DNA of 64,000 nucleotides from positions 62,001 through 126,000 of the forward strand of contig DATIGE010000047.1 of the NCBI GenBank assembly GCA_035454885.1. The letters run 5' to 3'. The notes under the pieces were generated by a model that was not told the origin of the DNA, did no database searches, and saw only the letters and a list, made by a program, of their open reading frames with translations. This document shows, piece after piece, positions 37,348 through 45,513 of the stretch. Position 1 is the first letter of the stretch, and every line of letters starts with the position of its first letter. Position numbers and translations under genes: made by a program. The stretch is from a bacterium (GTDB lineage: Bacteria > UBA10199 > JACPAL01 > GCA-016699445).

Positions 37348-38103
37348 ATGAAAAAAACCATGTCTTTCCGGCGCTTCATTCTGGGTCCCCTGGCCCTTTT
37401 CTTCCTGTCGGCCTGCCTTCCGTCCATGAGTCCGGCGGGATCTCCCGCGAACCCGGCCGGTGTCAAGGAATCCGCCGATGCCGGGACTGTTTCGCGCGCC
37501 GAGGCGCCGGAGGCGCCCGCCGCCGAGGCCGACCCGCAGATCGCTTCAAGCGATGGGGGGTTCGCGCCGAAGCCGGATGAGGCGAGCGTCCAGGATCCCG
37601 AGTTGGTGAGGGATTGGCGGGCCTTTTACGGCGACGGCCCTTGGTTGGAGCTTTCCAAGGTCGCGCCCGCTTCGCTCACGGAGGCGTCCGCCGGTCCCTT
37701 CACGCTTCATTTGGACGTCGAGCAATACGTGATGAGCACTCAAGTGATCACGGGAATGGCCTGGGTGGATGCGCCTCCGGGCATCACCATCAGACTGGTC
37801 TTGAAGCCGGAGGGAGGCGATGCGTCCCGCTTTCAGGCGGTTGATGCGAAGACGCAGAATTGCGAGGTGGAAGGCTGCGGTTATAATATGGAATTCCGGG
37901 ATCTCTCCGTCCCCGACGGGCTGATTGACGTTTACGCCTATCAGGGAGCCCTCAAACCGGACGGCACCCGTGAGACGCCTCCGGCGGACGTGACGGCCTT
38001 CTTGAACGACCCCCGGCGCCGCTATCTCGGTACCTTCTCGACGAAGCTCACCCTTCAGGACCGGACCCGCCGGAATTCGCAGATGGTCCGACCACCGCTC
38101 TAG
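37348..38103 (+). CDS. Lipoprotein of unknown function
   Basis: A 251-residue lipoprotein. The signal ends LFFLSAC at Cys23. An Ala/Pro/Glu-rich linker (about 25-80) leads to a folded domain of beta character (about 95-235), with FTLHLDVEQYVMSTQVITGMAWV and a Cys pair in CEVEGCGYNM (possible disulfide). No family recognised. It is divergent from hisA and converges with the large regulator gene, with nine bases between the stops. Confidence 0.75.
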   Translation: MKKTMSFRRFILGPLALFFLSACLPSMSPAGSPANPAGVKESADAGTVSRAEAPEAPAAEADPQIASSDGGFAPKPDEASVQDPELVRDWRAFYGDGPWLELSKVAPASLTEASAGPFTLHLDVEQYVMSTQVITGMAWVDAPPGITIRLVLKPEGGDASRFQAVDAKTQNCEVEGCGYNMEFRDLSVPDGLIDVYAYQGALKPDGTRETPPADVTAFLNDPRRRYLGTFSTKLTLQDRTRRNSQMVRPPL

Positions 38104-38112
38104 CTCCACGGC

Positions 38113-42555
<4,443 letters not shown>

Positions 42556-42560
42556 GATCG

Positions 42561-42583
42561 GCACAGTGTATACCGTACTGTGC
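42561..42583. promoter_or_regulatory. Palindrome GCACAGT-N9-ACTGTGC, candidate enhancer/operator
   Basis: Seven-base perfect arms around a nine-base centre that itself contains GTATAC. It lies directly before the regulator start and 105 bases upstream of the divergent sigma54 promoter. That is the usual distance for an enhancer bound by the Fis-type domain of a sigma54 activator. It could serve both activation and autoregulation. Inference. Confidence 0.6.
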
Positions 42584-42687
42584 ATTTGACCAAAGGATTT
42601 GCTTGCGCAGAGCGAGCAATAATCTCATCTCAAAATGACACGCGATTGAAACCTATGTAAATCTAGTGACTTATATGTTGGCCTGTG

Positions 42688-42704
42688 TTGGCACCTGAGT
42701 TGCT
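42688..42704 (+). promoter_or_regulatory. Sigma54 (-24/-12) promoter of the 42.7-45.5 kb operon
   Basis: TTGGCACCTGAGTTGCT matches TTGGCAC-N5-TTGCW without a mismatch, with the required GG-N10-GC spacing. Transcription would start near 42716, just before GGGAGG and the ATG at 42728. Confidence 0.85.
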
Positions 42705-42727
42705 ATACACCCTCCCAGGGAGGAACC

Positions 42728-43105
42728 ATGGGCATTTTAAGTGCATTGGGCGGCTTCTTCGGCGGCCCTCTCGGTTACGGGTTGGGGTCCCTGGTCGAAG
42801 GCAAGTCGAGCGCCACCGTCTCCTACGGGAAGCCCGTCGATTATTCCGAAGCGCTTCAATACGCGTCTGACAACAACAAGACGACGGCCTTGGGGCAGAT
42901 TCAAGCCCAGGGGTTTGCGTTGCAGCAGGCTTCCCTTGACCGTCAGATGCAGCTCGCCGCGCAGCTCGAACTCGGAATTGAGAAGCTCGATACGAAATTG
43001 CAGGCCTCCAAGCTGGAATACGTTCAGAGGATGACCGCCGAGGAAAACCGCCATGTCGAGAAAGTGGCCCGATCGGGGGGGATTCCGGAACCGGAGGTCA
43101 TCTGA
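42728..43105 (+). CDS. Small unknown protein with Gly-rich N terminus and coiled coil
   Basis: 125 residues. The first 25 (GILSALGGFFGGPLGYGLGSL) are glycine-rich and hydrophobic, resembling a glycine-zipper membrane-inserting segment rather than a Sec signal. Residues 50-110 are a Gln/Ala/Leu-rich coiled coil (LQQASLDRQMQLAAQLELG, EKLDTKLQASKLEYVQ). GGGAGG precedes the ATG. It is the first gene after the sigma54 promoter and is followed two bases later by the next unknown gene. No family recognised. Confidence 0.75.
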   Translation: MGILSALGGFFGGPLGYGLGSLVEGKSSATVSYGKPVDYSEALQYASDNNKTTALGQIQAQGFALQQASLDRQMQLAAQLELGIEKLDTKLQASKLEYVQRMTAEENRHVEKVARSGGIPEPEVI

Positions 43106-43107
43106 AC

Positions 43108-43722
43108 ATGAAAAAAACGAATTTACTTTTGAACGACCCTGTCCTCGACGCGCTCGATGCGCGCCTTACCATGAGCGTTCCCAGCGTCGCCGCCATCGCG
43201 TCCGCCGGACAGGCTCAGACCGGGCAGGAGATCATGGGGATGATGGCCGCGATGAGCGCGGGCCGTTCCTCGCAACCGATCGTCACAACGGGGGCTCAGG
43301 GGTCATCGGCCGGTCCGGCGATCGCAGCGGGAGTCGTCGGATTGGCCGTGGGCGGGATCGTGGGCGCCGCCTTGGCCGGTTCCTCCAAGGGGACATCGAA
43401 GAAAGCCGCTTCGTCATCCACGACCGGTCACACGCCCGTCAGCTTGACGACATTCAAGCGGCAGGCGGCGGATAAATTGGCGCCCGCGGCGATGCCGGCT
43501 CCGGCCTCGCCCCCGGTCCAGAAGGGCGAGGGACCAAGGCTTCCGGCGGCTCCGGTCCCGGAAAAGTTGCCCGTGCCTGCGCCGAAACCGGCGGTCCCCG
43601 CCGCGACGCCGCCACCGGCGCCGACCGCGTTGCCGGCACCCGTCGCCTCCCACGAGCCGATCGCCTCTTACACGCCGCCGGCCATGTCGATGGTGCCTCC
43701 CGCCGCATCAACGGGGGAATGA
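43108..43722 (+). CDS. Unknown protein with glycine-zipper segment and Pro/Ala-rich tail
   Basis: 204 residues. After a Met/Ala-rich N-terminal region (IMGMMAAMSAG), residues 70-92 form a glycine-zipper hydrophobic helix (IAAGVVGLAVGGIVGAALAG). The second half is a long Pro/Ala-rich tail (PAPASPPVQKGEGPRLP, then repeated Pro-Ala-Pro units) that is probably extended. There is no Sec signal. The gene is two bases after the previous one. The tail could span a wall or serve as a flexible export linker. Function unknown. Confidence 0.72.
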   Translation: MKKTNLLLNDPVLDALDARLTMSVPSVAAIASAGQAQTGQEIMGMMAAMSAGRSSQPIVTTGAQGSSAGPAIAAGVVGLAVGGIVGAALAGSSKGTSKKAASSSTTGHTPVSLTTFKRQAADKLAPAAMPAPASPPVQKGEGPRLPAAPVPEKLPVPAPKPAVPAATPPPAPTALPAPVASHEPIASYTPPAMSMVPPAASTGE

Positions 43723-43748
43723 GGAAAATAATTAACGAAGGAGGACTT

Positions 43749-44768
43749 ATGTCTGGACTGACATGTGGAGATCGTGGGCAGGAAAATTTGGGGGACTCCC
43801 TCTGCAAGTCACCGGACGACCATCCCGATCCGAATCAACGCGGGCTCGTCACCTATCGTGACGGCCGCGTGGCGGCGGTCATTCGCAGCGAGGGCGGGAA
43901 TACGGTCTTCGCAGGCCCCAAGGGGACGGGGGAAATCACCGTCGCCGATTTGGGAACGGCCGCGATCACCCTCATGCGCACCATGGCGGGCGGCGAGATC
44001 GGAGACTGCGCCGCCCGCGACAAGGGCGGTCTGTCGTTCTCCGCGTTGCAGAACGTTTACAACGGTTCACCAATCACCTGGTCGCAATCGCATTTGGCCG
44101 TCCTCTACCGAGCTCTGGGTCAGTCGACTGGGCAATCCGGCAACGCCTTCTTCTGTTCGAACCGCGAGAACGCCGGCGGCATGGTCGTCAACAACGACAC
44201 CTTTCACCGCCCGGCCCTGCTGGCGGCGATCAATGCGTTGGCCGAAAACCGCGGCAAGTTCCCGGAACTGGACGACGACCACCATGGCGCCATGCTTCAA
44301 TCACTCCGCGCCGCCGCCGGCGTGCCGGAATCGCAATCGCCGTGGGACCAGATCAAGGGTGTCATGGGATATCTCTTCGGCGGTCTCTTCGTCTTCATCG
44401 TCGGCGGCGCCGGCTCTCATTTTCTGACGGAGTGGCTCAAAAAGTTCGGCGGTCCCAAGGACCCTCCCGGCGGCGATGCGAAAAAGCCGGGCGGTGATGT
44501 CTCCCGGAAGCCCGAACCGGCGACGCCCGTGGCGAAGCGCGAAGGCGGGCCGGATCTCGGGGCCGTCATCTCGGGATCCCTCCTGGGCGTGGGGGGATTG
44601 GTTTTCGCGAAGGCCCTCTCCGTCGTGGGCCGGGCTCCAGCCGCGCCAGGTCTTGTGCCGCAAGGAGCGCTCGGAAGCGGGCCGATCATCGTTCCCAAAA
44701 TCAAGTCCGAAAACGGTTGCGAGCGATGGCCCTGGGAAGACGAAAAGAAGTGCGGCGGCGGCGCCTAG
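43749..44768 (+). CDS. Unknown membrane protein with N-terminal globular domain
   Basis: 339 residues from the ATG with AAGGAGG upstream. Residues 1-195 look globular and contain several Cys (TCGDRGQ, LCKSPDDHPDPNQRG, GDCAARDKGG, FFCSNREN), possibly disulfides or metal ligands. A membrane helix at about 200-222 (VMGYLFGGLFVFIVGGAG) and a second hydrophobic segment at about 275-297 (VISGSLLGVGGLVFAKAL) flank a Lys/Pro/Gly-rich loop. The end is charged with two Cys. Third gene of the sigma54 unit. No family recognised. Confidence 0.72.
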   Translation: MSGLTCGDRGQENLGDSLCKSPDDHPDPNQRGLVTYRDGRVAAVIRSEGGNTVFAGPKGTGEITVADLGTAAITLMRTMAGGEIGDCAARDKGGLSFSALQNVYNGSPITWSQSHLAVLYRALGQSTGQSGNAFFCSNRENAGGMVVNNDTFHRPALLAAINALAENRGKFPELDDDHHGAMLQSLRAAAGVPESQSPWDQIKGVMGYLFGGLFVFIVGGAGSHFLTEWLKKFGGPKDPPGGDAKKPGGDVSRKPEPATPVAKREGGPDLGAVISGSLLGVGGLVFAKALSVVGRAPAAPGLVPQGALGSGPIIVPKIKSENGCERWPWEDEKKCGGGA

Positions 44769-44776
44769 GAGAAAAC

Positions 44777-45001
44777 ATGAAAGACATTCCATTGCGCATC
44801 GCAACCATCGAGGAATATCTGGGAAACCGGATCACGGGCTTTGAGGCCGGCCGTCGCCTGGGTCTGCATCGCGTTTCGTTTTGGAGGATCTTGAAAAAAT
44901 ACGAATCCGCGGGACCCCGGGGGCTCGAGCACGGGCTTCGGGGACGGCCATCGAACAACGCGAAGATCCATAGAGACTCTGAAAACAGGGAGATGACATG
45001 A
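44777..45001 (+). CDS. Small HTH protein resembling a transposase N-terminal domain
   Basis: 74 residues from the ATG after AGGAGA. IATIEEYLGNRITGFEAGRRLGLHRVSFWRILKKYESAGPRGLEHGLRGRPSN has the form of the HTH_29/IS481-type domain that begins many transposases, including the terminal G-L-x-x-G-L-R-G-R-P-S. No catalytic domain follows, so it is either a domesticated DNA-binding domain or a truncated transposase. It overlaps the next gene by ATGA and follows the previous stop by eight bases, so it is embedded in the operon as if functional. Confidence 0.7.
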   Translation: MKDIPLRIATIEEYLGNRITGFEAGRRLGLHRVSFWRILKKYESAGPRGLEHGLRGRPSNNAKIHRDSENREMT

Positions 45002-45513
45002 AAAAAATAGCGCTCTTTTTTTTCCTGATCCCCATGGCCCTGCACGCCGCCGAAGGCGGCCGGAAGGGCAGGCTCGACGTCGGGGCCGACCTTGGAATCG
45101 GCGTTCGCTCGCCGGCTCGCGGGATCGTCCAGCTGCATTTCGGCGGGTTCCCGGCGAATAACATCCGCCTCGGCGTCACGGGCGATTTCCAGATCGGCGA
45201 TTCACCCTATGAAGGTATCGTCGGCTTATCGTTCGGATTCGGCGGGCTGTTTCACTATTACTTCGACCTCTCCGGATCGAGAATTGCACCGTTCGTGGGC
45301 GCCGGCCTCGGTTGGCGGCATCTCATCGCGGAGGATTACGACCTGAACGAATTGGACGCGACCCTCACGGAGGCTGGCGTTTCGATCCCGATCGGCGCCA
45401 AGGGGCGCTTCGTCTATGAGCCGCGGGCGTCGTTTCATTACATCCGCGGAGGCGGAGAGAATTCCTGGGACGTGAGAGTCTTCCCGGCGTCGTTCTCATT
45501 GAGAATCCTCTGA
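44998..45513 (+). CDS. Predicted outer-membrane beta-barrel protein
   Basis: 171 residues. The signal peptide is MKKIALFFFLIPMALHAA. Alternating hydrophobic strands follow (LDVGADLGIGVR, IVQLHFGGF, NIRLGVTGDFQIG, LFHYYFDLSG, IAPFVGAGLGWRHL), ending with an aromatic/hydrophobic strand FPASFSLRIL as in eight-stranded barrels. It is coupled to the small HTH gene by ATGA and is probably the last gene of the sigma54 unit. Function unknown. Confidence 0.7.
   Translation: MKKIALFFFLIPMALHAAEGGRKGRLDVGADLGIGVRSPARGIVQLHFGGFPANNIRLGVTGDFQIGDSPYEGIVGLSFGFGGLFHYYFDLSGSRIAPFVGAGLGWRHLIAEDYDLNELDATLTEAGVSIPIGAKGRFVYEPRASFHYIRGGGENSWDVRVFPASFSLRIL

Follow-up and report, generated by a model that had tools for sequence, protein, structure and literature searches.

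The operon and the activator divergent from it

The window analyzed here is a 64-kb stretch of a bacterial genome of the lineage UBA10199 (positions 62,001 to 126,000 of contig DATIGE010000047.1), and its subject is an operon of five genes, called A to E, which lies at 42728-45513, divergent from the gene for a giant sigma54 activator, or enhancer-binding protein (EBP). The assembly of the source genome is broken into 82 contigs; it was read in stretches around search matches, with gene calls from a simple custom script. A preliminary description of the window, made from its letters alone, had pointed to a perfect -24/-12 promoter and to the tight spacing of the five genes. Both were recovered, the promoter without a mismatch and the genes with intergenic gaps of -3 to 27 nt, and the start of gene C was corrected from 43719 to 43749, where it has a GGAGG ribosome site. 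The features are as follows.

38113-42555, reverse strand: giant sigma54 activator (EBP), 1,480 aa, with Ser/Thr kinase, TPR, GAF, sigma54 AAA+ and Fis-type helix-turn-helix (HTH) domains; its open reading frame extends to 42585
42561-42583: palindrome GCACAGT-N9-ACTGTGC, candidate enhancer (upstream activating sequence) of the EBP, 105 bp before the -24 box
42689-42704, forward strand: sigma54 promoter TGGCACCTGAGTTGCT, zero mismatches, GG-N10-GC, -24/-12; expected transcript start at ~42715
42728-43105, forward strand: gene A, 125 aa, Gly-rich N-terminus and a long conserved helix (residues 40-115)
43108-43722, forward strand: gene B, 204 aa, one glycine-zipper hydrophobic segment (residues 72-90) and a Pro/Ala-rich tail, without a Sec signal
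43749-44768, forward strand: gene C, 339 aa, a soluble N-terminal domain followed by two hydrophobic segments, without a Sec signal
44777-45001, forward strand: gene D, 74 aa, HTH related to transposase N-terminal domains, without a catalytic domain
44998-45513, forward strand: gene E, 171 aa, Sec-like signal, possible small outer-membrane barrel

The promoter is the sole zero-mismatch sigma54 site of the window, and it precedes the ATG of gene A by 23 nt, close to the genome-wide mode of 24-26 nt. The genome carries a single rpoN (PF04552, 212.8 bits, C4:88563), and a sigma54 site with an ATG 15-32 nt behind it is found 40 times, compared with 0 for a reversed-pattern control; the two results together show that there is a real and sizeable sigma54 regulon.

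The operon proteins were compared with Pfam, NCBIfam, PHROGs and PADLOC, and genes A and C also with the PDB. Genes A, B and C matched no family in the four libraries, A and C had no match in the PDB, and the libraries returned for the whole operon only an HTH for D and a weak OmpW similarity for E, in agreement with the earlier statement that no gene has a recognizable function. Gene A had been described as a Gly-rich coiled coil. The Gly-rich character holds for its N-terminus, which is variable and in some members hydrophobic, and AlphaFold2 (AF2) predicts a single 76-residue helix (block values of the predicted local distance difference test, pLDDT, ~51-92, mostly >74); the coiled coil is unproven because heptad or hydrophobic periodicity did not rise above that of shuffled sequences. 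Gene C has four Cys in its soluble domain (6, 19, 87 and 136) that are invariant in an alignment of five paralogs, and its AF2 model from a single sequence (pLDDT 51.6) was too poor for a fold search. With 74 aa, gene D falls short of its paralogs (114-125 aa), and its residues 7-69 match positions 133-194 of the 582 of phrog_151; as this covers the HTH region only, with no catalytic transposase domain, an insertion sequence or transposon is not supported. For gene E, previously called an outer-membrane barrel, a Sec-like signal is present, and the OmpW similarity is weak and below cut-offs (E-values 0.0026 and 0.12; 12.7 bits versus 24 in Pfam and 17.1 versus 287 in NCBIfam). R-bodies (Reb) are not supported for A and B, which have no RebB-like Pfam match, and neither is anti-phage defense for the operon, since A to E have no PADLOC match and PADLOC matches to the activator are confined to its generic kinase and AAA+ parts. 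No RNA elements were found, and a terminator scan of the operon gave nothing above chance.

The activator matches Pkinase (8e-34), GAF_2 (5e-12), Sigma54_activat (7e-66) and HTH_8 (6.5e-9) in Pfam, and its AAA+ domain carries the Walker motifs GESGTGK and GGTIFLDE and a GAFTHA loop. Position 42555 seems a more plausible start than 42585, since the glycine loop of the kinase follows directly and the palindrome would then stand outside the coding region. Its C-terminal GAF-AAA+-Fis part resembles EBPs of the NorR/NifA type, and the NifA model matches at an E-value of 3e-111, under the equivalog cut-off; unlike these, it has ~950 N-terminal residues with a Ser/Thr kinase and TPR repeats, and it carries the GAFTHA loop. 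Among the 30 PF00158 matches of the genome, about a dozen are giant fusions of >1,100 residues. Eight of the giant EBPs that were read have G(A/S)FTHA in place of G(A/S)FTGA (the window, L011, L012 and L014-L018), as do the shorter EBP of locus L020 and a homolog at locus L052 of G013, a genome that belongs to the same small phylum but to a different family. The usual Gly is found in the giant EBPs of L009, L010 and L013 and in the stand-alone EBPs that were read. GAFTHA has been listed as a function-compatible variant in Desulfovibrio DVU2894 (PMC4641369), and in NorR, replacing the corresponding Gly (G266) by D or N lets the protein escape repression by its GAF domain (PMC2941729). Because of that release, what the Gly-to-His change means in nature is open to test, and the GxFTHA and GxFTGA EBPs of this one genome form a natural series for studying the loop residue.

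On its other side, the activator gene meets a convergent gene whose family was found in the loci L014, L018, L017 and L012 by iterating a profile search over the retrieved loci.

37348-38103, forward strand: small lipoprotein, convergent with the activator; its family is present in four other EBP loci

Recurrence of the module and the sigma54 regulon

Eleven giant EBPs were read with their surroundings, and 10 are assessable, as the locus L015 ends at a contig edge. In six of these 10, a strict sigma54 site points away from the EBP within 190 bp of its called start. The EBP of G013 has the same divergent strict site. For 12 such stretches the expected number is ~0.09, computed on loci picked for EBPs or sigma54 sites and so at an enriched site density. 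Gene A comes first behind the EBP-divergent site in the window, in L014 and in G013, and a remnant of it (C4:55701) lies behind such a site in L012. The other genes recur in changing company. In L018, C-D follows the EBP-divergent promoter and A-lipoprotein-B follows another sigma54 site; L014 combines A and D with a different glycine-rich hydrophobic protein; B-D is found in L050 and lipoprotein-B in L102. Furthermore, a copy of gene A on contig C40 stands behind the near-consensus site AGGCATGGGACTTGCT. A candidate homolog of D in G013 (L119) was rejected, as its double Fis-type HTH belongs to a different family. Judged by these comparisons, the operon is one of several paralogous modules in which A, B, C and D occur in reshuffled sets. 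Looking for the same gene set beside kinase-sigma54 fusions in other genomes had been proposed as a check; it is borne out inside the source genome, as A to D recur at other EBP loci, and in part in a second family, G013 having gene A only.

The half-sites GCAC...GTGC of the palindrome are also found upstream of the homologous EBPs in L018 and, in the other family, L052; three occurrences were observed versus 0.12 expected, for a motif that was picked after looking. The palindrome may be the binding site of the EBP.

In the phylum sample (46 genomes of one class), a profile search with gene A found eight copies and the remnant in the source genome, two copies in G013 and one in G004, so that the family occurs in 3 of the 46 genomes. 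Gene B has five matches in the source genome and none in the 45 other genomes of the phylum, and gene C has four paralogs in the source genome and none in 39 relatives. No relatives of gene A were found in 84,980 species genomes and viral contigs, a set from which its own lineage may be left out, and phage records held neither A nor C. As far as homology searches tell, the operon proteins have so far been found only in their own candidate phylum.

Two other loci contain members of these families. An array of large unknown proteins (L028 and L029, C56:1-36000) includes three paralogs of gene C and three very large, related Sec proteins of 725-1547 aa, and the array proteins that were tested have no Pfam match. 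A phylum-wide locus beside HIT, lapA and often ihfB (L047, L051, L115 and L138-L164) encodes a conserved protein of 235-260 aa from an unknown family in 38 of the 46 genomes; it is flanked by fast-evolving small helical proteins rich in Gly and Ala, and in three genomes A-family members are present there.

The wider regulon, of about 40 promoters, is enriched in lipoproteins. A lipobox, assigned by a crude rule, is present in 13 of the 38 first genes behind sigma54 sites and in 19 of 479 other genes (p = 3e-8). In other bacteria, sigma54 has been tied to genes for the cell exterior (PMC3162934). Several of the sigma54-associated lipoproteins (L017, L018, L048, L049, L096, L101 and L102) share a GDEVI(L/M)P-like motif soon after the lipid-anchored Cys. 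Those of L101 and L102 (C73 and C74) have a near-identical stretch inside otherwise diverged sequence, and contig ends carry a 145-bp stretch with 99% identity, which suggests gene conversion among paralogs. Another sigma54-driven gene (L086:1023-2576) gives a borderline match to AvrPphF-ORF-2 (25.2 bits; cut-off 25).

A probable signal-gated envelope module and its alternatives

We consider that the operon probably belongs to a multi-copy family of signal-gated modules that act on, and may remodel, the cell envelope. The promoter, the gene architecture, the recurrence of the module and the lipoprotein enrichment of the regulon stand firm as readings of the sequence. That this EBP drives this promoter, as the preliminary description had supposed, is something we infer; the divergent pairing at 6 of the 10 giant EBPs and in G013 and the presence of rpoN support it. 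The locations of the products and their envelope role likewise have to be put conditionally. The association with the envelope that had been proposed gains from the hydrophobic segments of B and C, the signal in E and the lipoproteins of the regulon.

According to this explanation, the giant cytoplasmic activator would sense a signal with its TPR, GAF and kinase domains, and its AAA+ ring, positioned at the upstream palindrome, would open the sigma54 RNA polymerase at 42689-42704, so that A-B-C-D-E are made. B and C would anchor in the inner membrane, and E would be exported, probably to the outer membrane. A, with its long helix, could be soluble or peripheral to the membrane and act beside the activator or the membrane proteins, and D could be a local DNA-binding regulator. 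Taken with the hydrophobic segments of B and C and the signal in E, the lipobox enrichment of the regulon suggests that the output would alter the cell envelope or surface, parallel to the many sigma54-driven lipoproteins of the genome.

Four observations weigh against this explanation. The palindrome, though present 105 bases upstream as first described, is not significant alone, since a 7-bp-arm inverted repeat appears in ~11% of shuffles of its intergenic stretch (P ~0.11). Gene A also occurs away from EBPs, with three tandem copies on contig C64 and one on C40. Outside the source genome only gene A was found, not the full gene set. Finally, the topology of B and C is based on hydropathy only. 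The more specific suggestion of a pore-forming, contact-dependent or export device obtained no supporting evidence, the structure predictions being too weak for a fold search.

An unlikely alternative is a feedback circuit of the Psp type, in which A would inhibit its own activator and be released when B and C, or the lipoprotein, sense envelope damage, making the operon an envelope-stress response. In the Psp system, pspF is divergently oriented to the psp operon, and PspF has no large sensory part of its own. The general plan of pspF/pspABCDE agrees with what is seen here, namely a sigma54 activator beside a sigma54 operon with a long-helix protein first and inner-membrane proteins next. Gene A is moreover first behind EBP-divergent promoters in two families, and is predicted as a single long helix with a Gly-rich N-terminus that is hydrophobic in some members. 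In the known circuit, PspA inhibits PspF, and PspB and PspC relieve the inhibition (PMC3068692, PMC3128695, PMC6003685). However, gene A is about half as long as PspA and matches no PspA family, and Pfam gave no match to PspA/IM30 for A or to the PspB and PspC domains for B-E. Since A fails this family test, membership in Psp is not supported and a Psp-like working stays hypothetical. The tandem and solitary copies of A lie away from any EBP that was read, and the EBPs here, unlike PspF, carry a large sensory part of their own, with kinase, TPR and GAF domains. The module is also multi-copy, in contrast to Psp, and its operon includes an HTH protein and a possible outer-membrane protein.

It is quite unlikely that A, B and C, which have no Sec signals, serve the type III apparatus of the phylum as substrates, translocators or adaptors and are turned on through sigma54 in the course of contact with other cells, prey or host. 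The source genome does have a non-flagellar type III export locus (L174 and L165, C13:1-25000), with SctR/S/T-like proteins, SctV, SctN (T3SS_ATPase_C, 1e-20), SctL, an SctJ-type lipoprotein, FHA/YscD and a FliG-like protein, and no secretin or needle was recognized in it; the SctV/FlhA family is present in 44 of the 46 phylum genomes. Copies of A adjoin the phylum-wide locus of small Gly-rich helical proteins, and the borderline match in L086 is to an effector family. There are precedents as well. In Chlamydia, type III effectors and membrane remodeling are under sigma54 control (PMC7482065), and a remodeled membrane as sigma54 output would be a likeness to the CtcC regulon; there a single activator serves a single regulon, and no shared gene families were seen. 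A needleless T3SS* serves Myxococcus in predation (PMC12075869); the likeness to T3SS*/Kil lies in a deltaproteobacterial lineage with a type III locus without recognized secretin or needle, and it concerns that locus only, its link to the operon being hypothetical. Against export, hhalign found no homology of A or B to the small proteins of the type III locus, nor did Pfam give a match, and so their kinship with these proteins was rejected. The type III operon has no sigma54 site, and A-C are far narrower in distribution than the type III system. A protein next to the A copies on C64 (P1) was rejected as a type III gatekeeper, with two weak matches among 22, and it had no match in the PDB search. 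Export is consequently a minority explanation, because neither homology nor promoter links the type III operon to the one studied here.

Very unlikely, in our judgment, is the bolder proposal of an undescribed modular surface or export system in an uncultured deltaproteobacterial phylum, in which paralogous kinase-EBPs, each answering a cue of its own, would turn on separate sets of non-Sec helical and glycine-zipper proteins (A/B/C) and of surface lipoproteins that act in contact with other cells through the needleless type III apparatus found across the phylum. Least probable is a decaying or selfish lineage-specific family, in which duplicated cassettes would spread by recombination with little function beyond their own regulation: the short D of the window, the A remnant, an HTH derived from a transposase, orphan genes confined to one lineage and mosaic lipoproteins elsewhere in the regulon fit it, but among paralogs of 27-70% identity the core of A is conserved, as are the four Cys of C, the promoter, the ribosome sites and the reading frames are all intact, and the order A-promoter-EBP is kept across families.

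Meaning for the organism

The wiring of a sigma54 operon divergent from its activator is familiar. We came across no description of the combination seen here, the amplification, within one genome, of activators with kinase, TPR and GAF domains, most of them with GxFTHA and many linked to an operon whose protein families are absent from the libraries searched. If the envelope-module explanation is true, this bacterium would pick among surface states by means of parallel kinase-sigma54 switches.

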